Positions 36,317-44,243 of a stretch of DNA of 64,000 nucleotides are shown in pieces. This DNA comes from Sinorhizobium glycinis (GTDB taxonomy: Bacteria > Pseudomonadota > Alphaproteobacteria > Rhizobiales > Rhizobiaceae), in the NCBI RefSeq assembly GCF_001651865.1, contig NZ_LPUX01000053.1:62001-126000 (forward strand). The letters run 5' to 3'. Position 1 is the first letter of the stretch. Each line of letters begins with the position of its first letter. Both the position numbers and the translations under genes were made by a program. The notes under the pieces were generated by a model. The model saw only the letters and a list, made by a program, of their open reading frames with translations. It was not told the origin of the DNA and did not search any database.

Positions 36317-36331
36317 GTTCAACATTTGTTC
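36317..36331 (+). promoter_or_regulatory. LexA (SOS) box of dinB
   Basis: GTTC-AACATTT-GTTC matches exactly the alphaproteobacterial LexA direct repeat GTTC-N7-GTTC. It ends five bases before the dinB ATG and overlaps the predicted transcription start. A match of this type is expected about twice by chance in 64 kb, but its place before an SOS-type polymerase gene makes it convincing. Confidence 0.8.
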
Positions 36332-36336
36332 CGGCC

Positions 36337-37626
36337 ATGCCCAGCGCTGCACCGTTTTCCGGCTTCTGCCGAGACTGCCTCAAGGAACTGGCCGCGCCGG
36401 CGCGACGCTGCGTGGCCTGCGGCAGTCCGCGGCTTCTCAGCCATTCCGAGCTCTATCGGCTGACCCTGGCCCATATCGACTGCGACGCCTTCTATGCCTC
36501 GATCGAGAAGCGCGACAATCCGGAACTTGCCGACAAGCCGGTGATCATCGGCGGCGGCAAGCGCGGCGTCGTCTCGACGGCCTGCTACATCGCCCGTATC
36601 CACGGCGTCCGCTCTGCGATGCCGATGTTCAAGGCGCTCGAAGCCTGCCCGCAGGCCGTGGTGATCAAGCCGGACATGGAGAAATATGTGCGCGTCGGAC
36701 GCGAGGTCAGGGCGATGATGCTCGAACTGACGCCGCTCGTGCAGCCGCTGTCGATCGACGAGGCTTTCCTGGACCTGAACGGCACCGAGCGGCTGCATCA
36801 TGATCCCCCTGCCCGAACGCTGGCGCGCTTCGCGAGGCGGATCGAGACCGAGGTGGGCATCACCGTCTCCGTCGGGCTCTCCTACTGCAAGTTCCTCGCC
36901 AAGGTCGCCTCCGATCTGCAGAAGCCGCGCGGCTTCTCCGTCATCGGCCAGGCCGAGGCGGTCGACTTCCTGAAGGAGCGCCCCGTCACGCTGATCTGGG
37001 GCGTCGGCAAGGCCTTCGCCACGACGCTCGAGCGGGACGGCATCCGCACGATCGGTCAATTGCAGACGATGGAGGAAGCAGATCTCATGCGCCGCTACGG
37101 CTCGATGGGGCAAAGGCTCTATCGCCTGTCGCGCGGCCAGGACGAGCGAATCGTCGAGACCGATGGCGAGGCGAAGAGCGTATCCTCGGAGACGACCTTC
37201 AACGACGACCTGTCGCGCCCGGAAGAGCTCGTTCCGCATCTCAGGCGCCTAAGCGAGCAGGTCGCCCTGCGGTTGCGCAAGTCGGAGCTTGCCGGGCACA
37301 CCGTCGTCCTGAAACTCAAGACCGCAGACTTCAAGCTGCGCACGCGCAACCGGAGGCTCGAAAGCCCGACCCGCCTCGCCGACCGCATCTTTCGCGTAGG
37401 CCTCCAGCTGCTCGAAAAGGAAGTTGACGGCACGAAATACCGGCTGATCGGCATCGGCGTCAGCGATCTCGCCCACCCCGATCTCGCCGACCCGCCGGAT
37501 CTCGTCGATCCTATCGCCACCAGAAGGGCCGCCGCCGAAGAGGCGATCAACAAGCTGCACGACAAATTCGGCAAGACCAGCGTTGAAACGGGCTACACCT
37601 TCGGCCATCGCCGACGCGATCAATAG
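36337..37626 (+). CDS. dinB: DNA polymerase IV (Y family) with N-terminal zinc ribbon
   Basis: A 429-residue translesion polymerase. The catalytic acids are Asp48 ([12 protein letters not shown]) and Asp141-Glu142 (SIDEAFLDL). The palm/fingers, thumb (helix-hairpin-helix [11 protein letters not shown]) and little-finger regions follow. An N-terminal extension of about 40 residues, absent from E. coli DinB, carries Cys11, Cys14, Cys25 and Cys28 (CRDC and CVAC), a likely zinc ribbon. A LexA box overlaps its promoter. The C-terminus lacks a clear beta-clamp pentapeptide at the very end. Confidence 0.95.
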
Positions 37627-39053: not shown

Positions 39054-42000
39054 CTATACGAGCTCGACGTCCACCACACCCGGCGCGGAGCGAAGAGCTG
39101 CGGCAATCTCCGGCGAGATCCGATATTTCTCGCTGAGCTCGACCTCGATCTCCCGCTGACCATTGTCCTTGATGACGATGAACGAGACGAGGCCGTCTCC
39201 CTTGGCGTTCAGATGCGAGGCAATGGATCGCAAGGGGCCCGAATCGCGCACATAGACGCGCAGCGCCTTCTGCATCTGCAGCGATTCCTCTTCGAGCGAC
39301 CGTAGAGTCTGGATACGCAGGCCGATGCCCTCCGGCCGCTCCTCCGCTTCGACGGTCATCACCAGCGATTTGCCGGGTTCGAGCAGGTCGCGATACTGGT
39401 GCAGCATCTCCGAAAAGAGCACCGCCTCGAACTGGCCAGAGGCGTCGGAGAAGGCGACGATGCCCATCTTGTTGCCGGTGCGCGTCTTGCGCTCCTGCTT
39501 CGACGTCACGGTGCCTGCGAGCTTACCCCTTCCCGCACCTTTTTTGACCGCTGCGGCAAAGTCGGCGAAATTCTGAACGCGCAGCTTCTCCAGCAGCTTG
39601 TTGTAGGTATCGAGCGGATGAGCGGAAAGGTAGAAGCCGAGCACCTGGAACTCCCGGTGAAGCTTCTCCGAGGCGAGCCAGGGCGTATAGGCCGGCAGGG
39701 CGATCTTCTCAGGCCCCGTCGCGGCTCCGGCGCCGAACATGTCGCTCTGGCCGCTCAGCTTGTTTTCCTGGGCGCGCTGCGCGAAGCCGAGGATCCGGTC
39801 GAGCCCGCCGATCAGTTCGGCCCGGTCGTATCCGAAGCAGTCGAAGGCGCCGGCGGCGATGAGACTTTCGAAGACACGCCGGTTCAAGAGCTTCGGGTCG
39901 ATCCGTAGGCAGAAGTCCTCGAGGCTCGCGAAGGGACGGTCGCCGCGGACGGCGACGATGTGGTCGACGGCGGATTCACCGACGCCCTTGATGGCGGCAA
40001 GCGAGTAGTAGATGCGGTTATCGCCGGTCTCGAAAGGACGGAACGAGCTCTGCACCGAGGGTGCGATCACCTGAATGCCGAGGCGCATCGCGTCCTGGCG
40101 GAAGTCGTTGATCTTCTCCGTGTTCGACATGTCGAGCGTCATCGACGCCGCCAGGAACTCGACCGGGTAATGCGCCTTCATATAGGCGGTCTGGTAGGAG
40201 ACGATGGCGTAGGCCGCCGCGTGCGACTTGTTGAAGCCGTAGTTGGCGAATTTGGCGAGCAGATCGAAGATCAGGTCCGCCTGCGGCTTCGAGACCCCAT
40301 TGCCGACCGCGCCTTCGACGAAGCGGGCACGCTGCTTGTCCATCTCCTCCTTGATCTTCTTGCCCATGGCGCGGCGCAAGAGATCCGCCTCGCCGAGCGA
40401 ATAGCCCGAGAGCACCTGGGCGATCTGCATCACCTGCTCCTGATAGACGATAACGCCTTGCGTTTCCTTGAGCAGGTAGTCGATTTTCGGGTGGATCGAT
40501 TCGATCTCTTCCTCGCCATGCTTGCGGGCGTTGTAGACCGGGATATTTTCCATCGGGCCCGGCCGGTAGAGCGCGACCAGCGCGATGATGTCCTCGATGC
40601 AGTCGGGCCGCATGCCGATCAGCGCCTTGCGCATGCCGGCGCTTTCCACCTGGAACACCCCGACGGTCTCGCCGCGCGAAAGAATCTCGTAAGTCTTCGG
40701 ATCGTCGAGCGGGATGCTTGCGAGATCCACTTCGATGCCGCGCTTGGCGACGAAGTCGACCGCCGTCTTCAGCACCGTCAGCGTCTTCAGGCCGAGGAAG
40801 TCGAACTTGACGAGCCCGGCCTGCTCGACCCATTTCATGTTGAACTGGGTGACCGGCATGTCGGAGCGCGGATCGCGGTACATCGGCACCAGCTGCGACA
40901 GCGGCCGGTCGCCGATGACGATGCCCGCCGCATGCGTCGACGCGTGACGATAGAGACCCTCGATCTTCTGCGCGATGTCGAGAAGCCGGCCGACGACGGG
41001 CTCCTTTTCCGCCTCCTCCTGCAGGCGCGGTTCCTCCTCGATCGCCTTCGAAAGCGGCGTCGGATTGGCCGGATTGTTCGGCACCAGCTTGCAGATCTTG
41101 TCGACCTGGCCATAGGGCATTTCGAGCACGCGGCCGACGTCGCGCAGCGCGGCGCGTGCCTGCAGCGATCCGAAGGTGATGATCTGAGCCACCTGCTCGC
41201 GCCCATATTTCTGCTGCACGTAGCGGATCACCTCTTCGCGGCGGTCCTGGCAGAAATCGATGTCGAAGTCCGGCATCGAGACGCGCTCCGGATTGAGGAA
41301 GCGCTCGAAGAGCAACGAGAAGCGCATCGGATCGACGTCGGTGATCGTCAGCGCATAGGCGACCAGCGAGCCGGCACCCGAGCCGCGACCCGGCCCGACG
41401 GGAATGTCGTGCTGCTTCGCCCACTTTATGAAGTCCGCAACGATCAAAAAGTAACCCGGGAACTTCATTCGCTCGATGACGCCGAGCTCGAAGGCAAGGC
41501 GCTCGCGATAGTCTTCTTCCTTGTAGCCCGGCGCCATGCCGAGCTTGGCGAGCCGCAGTTCCAGCCCCTCCTCCGCCTGACGACGAAGCTCAGCGGACTC
41601 GGCGCGCTCGGCCTCCACAGGATCGTCCGAAACACCGGTGAAGCGCGGCAGGATCGGTCCGCGGGTCTTCAGCATGAAGGAGCAGCGGCGCGCGATCTCG
41701 ACGGTATTTTCCAGCGCCTCCGGCAGATCGGCGAAAAGCGCCGCCATCTCCTTGCGGCTCTTCAGATAATGATCCGACGTCAGCCGGAAGCGGCGATCGT
41801 CGGAAACGACGGCATTGTGGGCAACGGCCATCAGCGCGTCATGCGCATCATAGTCAGCCGGCGATGGAAAGAAGGCCTCGTTCGTCGCAACGAGCGGAAT
41901 GTCGTGGCGATAGGCAAGGTCGACCAGACGGCTCTCATGGCGTCGATCGTAACTGCCGTGGCGCTGCAGTTCGACATAAAGGCGATTGCCGAACAGCTCG

Positions 42001-42548
42001 TTCAGCGCCTTGAGGCGCCCTTCGGCAAGGGCGGGCGAGCCCGCCATCAGCGCAAGGTCGACCGGGCCGCCGCCGGCACCGGACAAGGCGATCAGACCAT
42101 CCGTGCCGCCCGCGGCGAGCCAGGAGCGCGTTATCCGCGCTGCCTGATGACCTTCGCCTTCGAGATAAGCGCGGCTGACCAGGTCGACGAGGCGGGTGTA
42201 GCCTTCGTCGGTCGCCGCAATCAGGACAATCGAAGGCAGCTTGGCTAGCTGCTGCGCGTGGCTGCGTCGCTCCCCCTCCGCCTCGTCCTCCATGTCGATG
42301 GACAGCTGACATCCGATGATCGGTTGCAATCCGTCGTCTGCCGCCTTCTGGGAAAACTCCAGCGCGGCGAACAGATTGTTGGTATCGGCAATGCCGATGG
42401 CCGGCTGATCGTCGGCCACCGCCTTGGCGATGATCTTCTTCAGCGGCAGCGCGCCTTCCAGCAGCGAATAGGCCGAATGCACGCGCAGGTGAACGAATTG
42501 CGGATCCACGCCGCCCGAGCCCTGGTTGATGCTTTCGTCGCCTGCCAT
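39054..42548 (-). CDS. dnaE: DNA polymerase III alpha subunit
   Basis: The 1164-residue replicative polymerase. An N-terminal PHP domain (HLRVHSAYSLLEGALP, then ADTNNLFAALEF) precedes the palm with PGRGSGAGSLVAYAL and the catalytic acids in PDFDIDFCQDRR. HASTHAAGIVI, the fingers, the helix-hairpin-helix and the OB domain (KLAGTVTSKQERKTRTGNKMG) follow. The length is typical of DnaE1. The start is the first ATG of the homologous region. The 28-residue peptide gene with LexA boxes lies 131 bases upstream on the same strand. Confidence 0.98.
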   Translation of the reverse strand: MAGDESINQGSGGVDPQFVHLRVHSAYSLLEGALPLKKIIAKAVADDQPAIGIADTNNLFAALEFSQKAADDGLQPIIGCQLSIDMEDEAEGERRSHAQQLAKLPSIVLIAATDEGYTRLVDLVSRAYLEGEGHQAARITRSWLAAGGTDGLIALSGAGGGPVDLALMAGSPALAEGRLKALNELFGNRLYVELQRHGSYDRRHESRLVDLAYRHDIPLVATNEAFFPSPADYDAHDALMAVAHNAVVSDDRRFRLTSDHYLKSRKEMAALFADLPEALENTVEIARRCSFMLKTRGPILPRFTGVSDDPVEAERAESAELRRQAEEGLELRLAKLGMAPGYKEEDYRERLAFELGVIERMKFPGYFLIVADFIKWAKQHDIPVGPGRGSGAGSLVAYALTITDVDPMRFSLLFERFLNPERVSMPDFDIDFCQDRREEVIRYVQQKYGREQVAQIITFGSLQARAALRDVGRVLEMPYGQVDKICKLVPNNPANPTPLSKAIEEEPRLQEEAEKEPVVGRLLDIAQKIEGLYRHASTHAAGIVIGDRPLSQLVPMYRDPRSDMPVTQFNMKWVEQAGLVKFDFLGLKTLTVLKTAVDFVAKRGIEVDLASIPLDDPKTYEILSRGETVGVFQVESAGMRKALIGMRPDCIEDIIALVALYRPGPMENIPVYNARKHGEEEIESIHPKIDYLLKETQGVIVYQEQVMQIAQVLSGYSLGEADLLRRAMGKKIKEEMDKQRARFVEGAVGNGVSKPQADLIFDLLAKFANYGFNKSHAAAYAIVSYQTAYMKAHYPVEFLAASMTLDMSNTEKINDFRQDAMRLGIQVIAPSVQSSFRPFETGDNRIYYSLAAIKGVGESAVDHIVAVRGDRPFASLEDFCLRIDPKLLNRRVFESLIAAGAFDCFGYDRAELIGGLDRILGFAQRAQENKLSGQSDMFGAGAATGPEKIALPAYTPWLASEKLHREFQVLGFYLSAHPLDTYNKLLEKLRVQNFADFAAAVKKGAGRGKLAGTVTSKQERKTRTGNKMGIVAFSDASGQFEAVLFSEMLHQYRDLLEPGKSLVMTVEAEERPEGIGLRIQTLRSLEEESLQMQKALRVYVRDSGPLRSIASHLNAKGDGLVSFIVIKDNGQREIEVELSEKYRISPEIAAALRSAPGVVDVELV

Positions 42549-42679
42549 TGCCGCACTCCGATTCCTGTCTGGTGCGGAGGATATCCCGTTTCCCGCCCCG
42601 ACTGTCCAGCCTTACCGCGAGGCCCTGCCCCCTTTTTGCCCGGCCGCGCTTGGCAGGACGGATTTGCAGCGGGCGGCGA

Positions 42680-42766
42680 TCACATGCCGAGTGCGATCAT
42701 CGAAATGCTTGCGATGAAAAGGGTCATCGAGGCGAAGGCAGCGAGATCACGGACGAAATCAGTCAT
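42680..42766 (-). CDS. 28-residue single-pass membrane peptide, SidA-like candidate
   Basis: A short gene preceded by AAAGGAG seven bases before its ATG. It encodes 28 residues: a charged start (MTDFVRDLAAFASM) and one hydrophobic helix from about residue 8 to the end (TLFIASISMIALGM). It is too short for standard gene calling. Its promoter region holds three GTTC half-sites in LexA spacing. The 29-residue SidA of Caulobacter is also SOS-induced, single-pass, and blocks division through FtsW; similarity here is in size, topology and control, and homology is unproven. dnaE follows after 131 bases on the same strand, so read-through is possible. Confidence 0.72.
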   Translation of the reverse strand: MTDFVRDLAAFASMTLFIASISMIALGM

Positions 42767-42788
42767 AACATGGCTCCTTTCGGCTATT

Positions 42789-42814
42789 GTTCTATCTTTG
42801 TTCCATTTATGTTC
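42789..42814 (-). promoter_or_regulatory. Double LexA box (three GTTC half-sites) of the 28-residue peptide gene
   Basis: On the plus strand GTTC occurs at 42789, 42800 and 42811, each separated by exactly seven bases. This gives two overlapping GTTC-N7-GTTC sites (GAAC-N7-GAAC read along the gene). The run lies between a CTTGAC -35 (42819-42824) and the ribosome-binding site, the position of a repressor operator. Three in-phase half-sites are much less likely by chance than one pair. Confidence 0.8.
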
Positions 42815-43008
42815 GATAGTCAAGCAAGCGTGAATGAAACGCCCGTTATTCATCGGCTATGGTTAATGCAACCGAGGCGGTCAACTCAAAGCGAGACGCC
42901 TTCCGAAGACCAGCAACAGGCTTATTGAACTGCAGAGCGCGCGGGCTACGCCCACTCTCATGAACTCGGTTCTTCACGGAGCCCAACGCGGCCGCGAAGA
43001 GGATGCAT

Positions 43009-43023
43009 GTTCTCTTTTTGTTC
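43009..43023 (+). promoter_or_regulatory. LexA-type box upstream of the DUF5680 gene
   Basis: GTTC-TCTTTTT-GTTC is an exact match to the alphaproteobacterial SOS box, 52 bases before the start codon at 43076. No good promoter hexamers were recognised around it. One such match is expected by chance per strand in a window of this size, so it needs testing. Confidence 0.55.
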
Positions 43024-43075
43024 TTTACAGCCGGCATTTGCTGCGGCATCCTCCGCGAAAGACGGAGGAGCGTGC

Positions 43076-43543
43076 ATGATCAGCATCGAGGAACTGACCG
43101 ACTTTATCGTCGAGGCGAAGGCGAAGACCTATATTGGCGATGGCTCAAGACTGCCGGCCTGCCGAACCGGTTCCCACGATCTCGGCCATCACCGCGGCTC
43201 CTGGCGCTACCTCGACAGCTATTTCGGCGGGACCGATTTCGCCGGCCAGGAAGCGGTCTGGCATGACGGCACACCGTGCTGGGCCATGAATTACTTCGGC
43301 CGAATCATCCGTCCGGAACTTATCAATGCGCGGCGGGCGGGCGCCGTCATCAAGGCGGCACTGCAGACGATGTATCGCGAAAAGCGCCATTTCCTCGGCG
43401 GCATGGAATATCAGCACGCCTATGGCTGCTATGTCGACAGCAGCCGCGGCGGAACCGATCATTTCTCCGGACGCGAGACCATTTTCGTCGATGGGGAAGA
43501 AGCCTATGAGCTCGATTATCGCGGCGGGCTGATCGTTCCGTGA
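43076..43543 (+). CDS. DUF5680 domain protein, possibly SOS-controlled
   Basis: A 155-residue soluble protein of the DUF5680 family: EELTDFIVEAKAKTYIGDG, RYLDSYFGGTDFAGQEAVW, WAMNYFGRI and the closing SSRGGTDHFSGRETIF and YELDYRGG. The repeated FGGTDF/RGGTDHF pattern suggests two similar half-domains. The family is of unknown function. The ATG follows GGAGGAG; a frame open upstream is not conserved-looking. A LexA-type box lies in its 5' region. Confidence 0.8.
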   Translation: MISIEELTDFIVEAKAKTYIGDGSRLPACRTGSHDLGHHRGSWRYLDSYFGGTDFAGQEAVWHDGTPCWAMNYFGRIIRPELINARRAGAVIKAALQTMYREKRHFLGGMEYQHAYGCYVDSSRGGTDHFSGRETIFVDGEEAYELDYRGGLIVP

Positions 43544-43556
43544 GCTTCCTTCCGGC

Positions 43557-44243
43557 CTATCTCAGTTCGACGACCTTGCCGTCCTCGATCGTCACGCAGC
43601 GATCCATAAGCGCCGCGAGCTCGTGATTGTGGGTGGCGATCAGCGCCGCCAGCCCGGACTGACGTGCTAGAGCTTCCATCGCCTCGAAGACATAACCGGC
43701 GGTCTCCGGATCGAGATTGCCGGTGGGCTCGTCGGCCAGCAGAATGAGCGGTGCGTTGGCTACCGCCCGCGCTATCGCCACCCGCTGCTGCTCGCCGCCG
43801 GAAAGTTCAGCCGGACGGTGCGCGGCACGGTGTCCGATGCGCATATAGTCCAGCAGCGCCCTCGCCCGCTCGGCCGCTTCCGCCTTTGACAAGCCGGCGA
43901 TCAGCTGCGGCATCATGATGTTCTCGAGCGCCGAGAATTCCGGCAGCAGGTGATGAAACTGGTAGACGAAGCCGATCTCGTTCCGGCGTATCGCCGTGCG
44001 CCGGTCGTCGCTGAGGCCGTTGCATGGCATGCCGTTGACGATCACGTCGCCCGTGTCCGGATGTTCGAGCAGCCCGGCGACATGAAGCAGTGTCGATTTC
44101 CCCGTGCCAGAGGGTGCGACCAGGGCAATCGTTTCGCCGCTCCGCAAGGTCAGATCGACACCCTTGAGGATCGGAAGATAGGTATCTCCCTCGCCATAAT
44201 GTCGCTCTACGCCGGAGAGCTGCAGTGCCACGCGCGCATTCAT
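43557..44243 (-). CDS. lolD: Lipoprotein-releasing ABC transporter ATP-binding protein
   Basis: A 228-residue ABC ATPase: Walker [11 protein letters not shown]-loop [12 protein letters not shown], signature LSGGEQQR, Walker [14 protein letters not shown] and the switch His in IATHNHE. With its membrane partner (next gene upstream, 17 bases away) it extracts outer-membrane lipoproteins from the inner membrane for LolA. The pair sits downstream of proS, a usual alphaproteobacterial order. Confidence 0.93.

Follow-up and report, generated by a model that had tools for sequence, protein, structure and literature searches.

A short gene on the minus strand of the stretch analyzed here, a window of 64,000 nucleotides from Sinorhizobium glycinis, lies directly ahead of dnaE and encodes a predicted membrane peptide of 28 residues. 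We read it as an SOS inhibitor of cell division that represents the SidA lineage in rhizobia. From the sequence comparisons below, we put the probability of this reading at roughly 0.72. That the gene is the rhizobial counterpart of SidA had been proposed in a first-pass annotation of the same DNA, and the proposal is supported by a shared place before dnaE, by profile scores compared with those of shuffled peptides together with a motif in ungapped register, and by the co-occurrence of LexA-type box and peptide, although the SidA equivalog model does not recognize the peptide. The rhizobial peptide and SidA would then probably be branches of one old DNA-damage checkpoint.

In the proposed mechanism, LexA would sit on GAACN7GAAC operators just behind a -35 element and keep the gene off. 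Upon DNA damage, LexA would be cleaved and a messenger with a short leader and a strong ribosome-binding site would give rise to the peptide. The latter would insert in the inner membrane and contact the late divisome, most likely FtsW, holding septal wall synthesis inactive until repair. We infer the same action as for SidA because of homology, locus and operator. PMC4211646 and PMC12700426 describe SidA itself as 29 residues long, located in the inner membrane and blocking division via FtsW, and as the reason why a C. crescentus lexA deletion mutant filaments.

The peptide gene and its operator in Rhizobiaceae

The first-pass annotation had described a 28-codon gene with AAAGGAG seven bases before its ATG, preceded by three GAAC half-sites at an exact 11-bp period and located ahead of dnaE in the same orientation. 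Coordinates and translation agree with this description (Table 1), as does the family match of dnaE (NF004226). The best 19-residue hydropathy of the peptide is 2.12. Searched as a single sequence against 297 Rhizobiaceae genomes, the peptide was matched in 113 of them at E <= 0.1, and the best 30 loci were chosen by peptide identity, without the promoter as a criterion. The frame and the ribosome-binding site are conserved in these relatives, with exactly 28 codons and a Shine-Dalgarno-like tetramer each found in 30/30. The gene is, by a median ratio of nonsynonymous to synonymous substitution rates (dN/dS) of 0.21 (378 of 435 pairs, those with a proportion of synonymous differences, pS, between 0.05 and 0.70), under purifying selection. 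In four pairs, ungapped identity is 0.85-0.97 within the coding sequence but 0.23-0.62 over the 100 bp past the stop. A chance open reading frame (ORF) is ruled out by the exact length, the Shine-Dalgarno sequence, the operator position and the dN/dS.

The promoter region is conserved in part. GAACN7GAAC begins 47-49 bp 5' of the ATG in all 30 loci, while the third half-site at the 11-bp period, which had been singled out along with the other two, is retained in just 13; a fourteenth locus, L016, has a second box elsewhere. More than one box ahead of the peptide with spacings other than 11 bp, or extra boxes upstream, are seen in L298, L303, L312, L323, L016, L151, L152, L155, L156, L160, L166 and L174, and operator doubling seems to recur among the relatives. 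The CTTGAC -35 element claimed earlier is present, and TTGAC occurs 1-8 nt ahead of the box in 30/30 loci, but a scan of 42500-43100 for the strict sigma-70 consensus gave no promoter-like site: the -35 element alone is recognizable, with no -10.

In the same loci, the next gene is dnaE in 30/30 flanks, and lolD lies within the 1.5-kb flank in 23/30. Among 40 peptide matches for which the place of dnaE is known, 38 lie ahead of dnaE in the same orientation, with a gap of 130-1399 bp; in 37 of them it is no more than 690 bp, and in the remaining one it is 1399 bp. The other two matches, located away from dnaE, are weak, with E above 0.09.

To which gene the box belongs can be judged from 60 divergent Rhizobiaceae dnaE loci, hand-picked from the more divergent part of 107 dnaE places. 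Box and peptide occur together in 19 loci (16 passed the filter, in some cases from a start further upstream, and three were recognized by eye), the box alone in none, the peptide without an exact box in two (L285, L314), and neither was found in 39. The association has a Fisher p of 1e-13, with the proviso that kinship is not corrected for and that boxed loci were inspected by eye and boxless ones by filter and motif only, leaving unrelated hydrophobic ORFs uncounted, a bias that favours the association. Since box and peptide co-occur and no box stands alone, the LexA site previously ascribed to dnaE in alphaproteobacteria is probably that of the peptide gene. PMC3323433 bears on LexA-site genes in C. 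crescentus and, from an analysis of its own, also reports such genes for other alphaproteobacteria.

Induced read-through into dnaE, also suggested in the first-pass annotation, is possible. Peptide and dnaE may share a transcript, as no terminator-like site lies between them and a translated S. meliloti ORF in the corresponding place is assigned to the dnaE1 5'-untranslated region (5'-UTR) in PMC10117765. Against such coupling, the operator tracks the peptide and not dnaE, and the gap between the two genes is highly variable.

Relation to SidA and competing explanations

Locus L143, one of the 60 family loci of the class survey described below, encodes MVQFTRETLALASVASFVWMMVEVARMFA; its family is taken as Caulobacteraceae. 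This peptide is matched in 58 of 79 genomes of the presumed family. In the best 30 of these loci, dnaE is the next gene in 30/30, lolD lies in the flank in 13/30 and an exact box is present within 90 bp in 21/30. The family model for the cell division inhibitor SidA (NF033228, cut-off 35 bits) scores two of the Caulobacteraceae peptides at 59.7 and 72.4 bits, the second of which (L157) has lolD on one side and dnaE on the other. Among the named Caulobacterales records listed (L176-L189), a 29-residue peptide precedes dnaE in 13 of 14, with L183 lacking it; five Caulobacteraceae (L176, L177, L182, L185 and L189) carry the peptide without an exact box. As two of the Caulobacteraceae peptides before dnaE are recognized as SidA, SidA occupies the place that the window peptide has here. 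Across 14 control genomes, NF033228 gives any match in nine, C. vibrioides included, and passes its cut-off in one.

Similarity beyond composition was assessed by shuffling residues 2-8 and residues 9 to the end separately, in 500 sets. A profile of 27 Caulobacteraceae peptides scores 19 Rhizobiaceae peptides at a mean of 13.5 bits, compared with 1.83 for the best of the shuffled sets, and the real score of each of the 19 is reached by 0-2 of 500 shuffles. In reverse, the Rhizobiaceae profile scores the 27 SidA-type peptides at a mean of 7.9, versus at most 1.72 in shuffles. On 11 peptides from other Hyphomicrobiales, the Rhizobiaceae profile reaches a mean of 24.9 bits, with 0/500 shuffles for each. 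An hhalign comparison of the Rhizobiaceae and Caulobacteraceae profiles gives a probability of 89.6 over columns 1-18. An ungapped register of 34 Rhizobiaceae peptides (15 from divergent dnaE loci, some picked by eye) and 27 Caulobacteraceae peptides shares R6 (22/34 and 26/27), D/E7 (34/34 and 26/27), A/S10 (34/34 and 27/27), S13 (29/34 and 27/27) and F17 (34/34 and 27/27). These comparisons point to a residual similarity to SidA that exceeds composition and is weaker in the reverse direction. The window peptide thus resembles SidA in its place before dnaE (with lolD upstream where the flank reaches), its LexA-type box, its single short hydrophobic helix, its length (28 versus 29 residues) and the five positions in register. 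Unlike SidA, it is without the conserved FVWM block, has D3 instead of R3 and is missed by NF033228.

Several observations weigh against the SidA reading. NF033228 misses the window peptide even at E <= 10, its best matches in the same genome lying elsewhere at 12.3-13.1 bits; a direct membership is therefore dropped, and the peptide falls in 0 families. Compared with five SidA-type peptides, the window peptide is 21-36% identical. With the reverse profile, for 5 of the 27 SidA-type peptides over 5% of the shuffled versions score as high, and the Caulobacteraceae profile is weak on the 11 other Hyphomicrobiales peptides (mean 5.7, 4 of 11 indistinguishable). A helical-face pattern, also tried, lacks significance (252, 1202 and 417 of 5000 shuffles). 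The C. crescentus gene is absent by name among the named records listed. Finally, the peptide is dispensable, as it was not found in 39 of the 60 divergent Rhizobiaceae loci.

A peptide under LexA control may also act otherwise. TisB, a single-pass peptide whose gene has a structured leader, and DinQ are LexA-controlled hydrophobic peptides that act on the membrane and not on the divisome. The size and hydrophobicity of the window peptide fit such a role, in which it would depolarize the membrane or slow energy metabolism after damage instead of inhibiting the divisome. Examples of small single-pass peptides under LexA control are known, as PMC3567139 describes for DinQ, which has antisense RNAs. 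Nonetheless, this explanation is unlikely given the position common with SidA and the motif in register; moreover, the 47-49 bp from operator to ATG leave a leader estimated at about 20 nt, probably too short for a structured leader of the tisB type, and Rfam gives no match within 42300-43200 at E <= 1. Still less probable is that a true membrane peptide of the SOS response originated at this intergenic position on its own, unrelated to SidA, as an analogue that may nevertheless stop division. Short hydrophobic peptides can resemble each other and the SidA model fails, but the block-shuffle test, the ungapped register, the shared neighbours and the shared operator speak against an independent origin, as do the Hyphomicrobiales intermediates, each of which the Rhizobiaceae profile scores above all of its shuffles. 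A leader ORF tuning dnaE translation or transcription, a type of role raised by the authors of PMC10117765, who place a translated ORF in the S. meliloti dnaE1 5'-UTR, and compatible with the lack of a terminator-like site ahead of dnaE, is very improbable, as the gap to dnaE shows neither a fixed distance nor a conserved spacer, identity falls past the stop in four pairs, conservation is at the protein level, Rfam is empty and dnaE persists where no peptide is found.

The locus across the class

Peptides related to the proposed SidA counterpart extend beyond Rhizobiaceae. A profile search of 397 Hyphomicrobiales genomes gave a match at E <= 0.1 in 54. Of 28 such loci examined (L031-L058), 26 adjoin dnaE (L051 and L057 do not), and an exact box lies within 90 bp ahead of the match in 22 of these 26. 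Nineteen of the 26 lie outside Rhizobiaceae; their peptides are 28-36 residues long, in many cases with a W placed close to the end, and 17 of the 19 are boxed.

A search of the whole class with alignment A2 matched 26 of 387 genomes at E <= 0.1 and was rejected; because these matches are mostly due to chance, loci anchored on dnaE, which is matched in 267 of the 387 genomes, were used instead. One genome per family was taken for 60 families, with up to 900 bp upstream of dnaE (L103 just 200 bases). GAACN7GAAC occurs in 11 of the 60 family loci, in all 11 with a small hydrophobic ORF behind or overlapping it (nine by filter, L094 and L111 by eye). Three family loci have a match in the GTTC orientation alone, no further than 91 bp from the dnaE match; they carry no small hydrophobic ORF. 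Where a GAAC box is missing (49 loci), filtering, the only means applied there, gave no small hydrophobic ORF between -450 and -80. Similarly, 21 of 80 named dnaE loci contain a GAAC box, followed by a hydrophobic ORF detected by filter in 19 and by eye in one (L181). The sole boxed case with no small hydrophobic ORF behind the box is L249 (Methyloceanibacter).

Fourteen peptides from other orders have low scores, and about half are indistinguishable from shuffles by either profile. Beyond Rhizobiaceae and Caulobacteraceae the sequence link is weak, and the case rests on position and box. One possibility is that the SidA checkpoint is not confined to Caulobacteraceae but is an old alphaproteobacterial device (order lolD-sidA-dnaE) that was often lost or eroded, with genes overlooked because annotation misses such short frames and the family model misses such diverged ones. 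What has been taken for LexA control of dnaE would then be the promoter of the inhibitor, and a single damage-induced transcript from it may also couple the supply of replicative polymerase to the arrest of division. We give this joint, class-wide reading slightly better than even odds, lowered because the peptides of other orders score so poorly.

Surrounding features, known systems and meaning

Table 1. Features of the peptide locus (window coordinates).
Feature	Position	Strand	Remarks
28-codon ORF, predicted single-pass membrane peptide, SidA-like	42680..42766	-	translation MTDFVRDLAAFASMTLFIASISMIALGM + stop
Shine-Dalgarno AAAGGAG	42774..42780	-	7 nt 5' of ATG
Two overlapping LexA-type boxes (three GAAC half-sites; putative LexA binding)	42789..42814	-	half-sites 42789-42792, 42800-42803, 42811-42814; exact 11-bp period
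-35-like element CTTGAC / TTGACT	42819-42824 / 42818..42823	-	5' of box
dnaE, replicative DNA polymerase III alpha	39054..42548	-	NF004226, 1512.3 bits (cut-off 1002); 131 bp past peptide stop
lolD, next same-strand gene upstream	43557..44243	-	best match TIGR02211 LolD, 258.3 bits, under cut-off 307.75
DUF5680 gene between peptide ORF and lolD	43077-43543	+	PF18931, 89.9 bits

The tRNA search returned nothing. The window contains five GTTCN7GTTC sites (shuffles: mean 1.77, standard deviation 1.35, with 4/100 reaching five), and genome-wide the pattern occurs 79 + 99 times versus 81 + 58 for its reversed form. The enrichment of the bare motif is mild at most, and the motif count was dropped as evidence; the operator stands above chance because it is conserved across relatives. 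Among the 100 of 178 genome sites listed, eight have at least six A/T in the spacer. Two of these form the peptide operator, and the others lie at uvrA/ssb, a YifB (ComM-type) gene, dinB, the DUF5680 gene and two unnamed genes. One lexA in the genome passes TIGR00498 (181.5 bits), with GTTCCATATGTGTTC 45 bp upstream. Similar boxes rich in A/T are those in the ssb-uvrA gap, ahead of the YifB gene and ahead of dinB in the window.

Further boxes are found near other genes. The dinB gene (DNA polymerase IV, NF002751, 727 bits; 36337-37626, plus strand) has the box GTTCAACATTTGTTC at 36317-36331, 5 bp 5' of its ATG. A LexA-type box GTTCTCTTTTTGTTC at 43009-43023 (plus strand) lies 53 bp 5' of the ATG (43077) of the DUF5680 gene, would fall inside that gene if the alternative start at 43007 were used, and among nine loci examined is present in L001 (this genome) and L002 alone. 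Elsewhere in this genome (L260, box at 899), GTTCTTGCTTTGTTC precedes a gene for a PA0069-family radical SAM protein (NF033668, 526.7 bits), a possible further LexA target.

The first-pass label of the gene as unannotated needs a correction, as a translated small ORF in the S. meliloti dnaE1 5'-UTR, sORF25, was reported from ribosome profiling in 2023 (PMC10117765). By description and not by coordinates, sORF25 is probably the S. meliloti counterpart of the window ORF, being a translated small ORF just ahead of dnaE1; unlike the present reading, the main text of that paper draws no link to LexA or SidA (term counts of 0). DidA, YneA and SosA, as characterized in PMC4211646, PMC13396833 and PMC6851548, are comparable as small, DNA-damage-induced membrane proteins that block division. 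The resemblance is by description only: DidA is SOS-independent and binds FtsN, and YneA has a LysM domain. Within titles and abstract beginnings, a scope that most subscription journals fall outside, the literature names no SOS division inhibitor for rhizobia and describes no SidA outside Caulobacter.

The reading of the peptide as a SidA-type inhibitor offers a one-gene hypothesis for SOS division arrest in rhizobia, testable in S. meliloti; any contribution to the arrest of division in nodule bacteria is purely speculative. It would also explain why a housekeeping polymerase gene looked LexA-controlled, and it provides a natural series of short peptides for asking how one helix silences septal wall synthesis.
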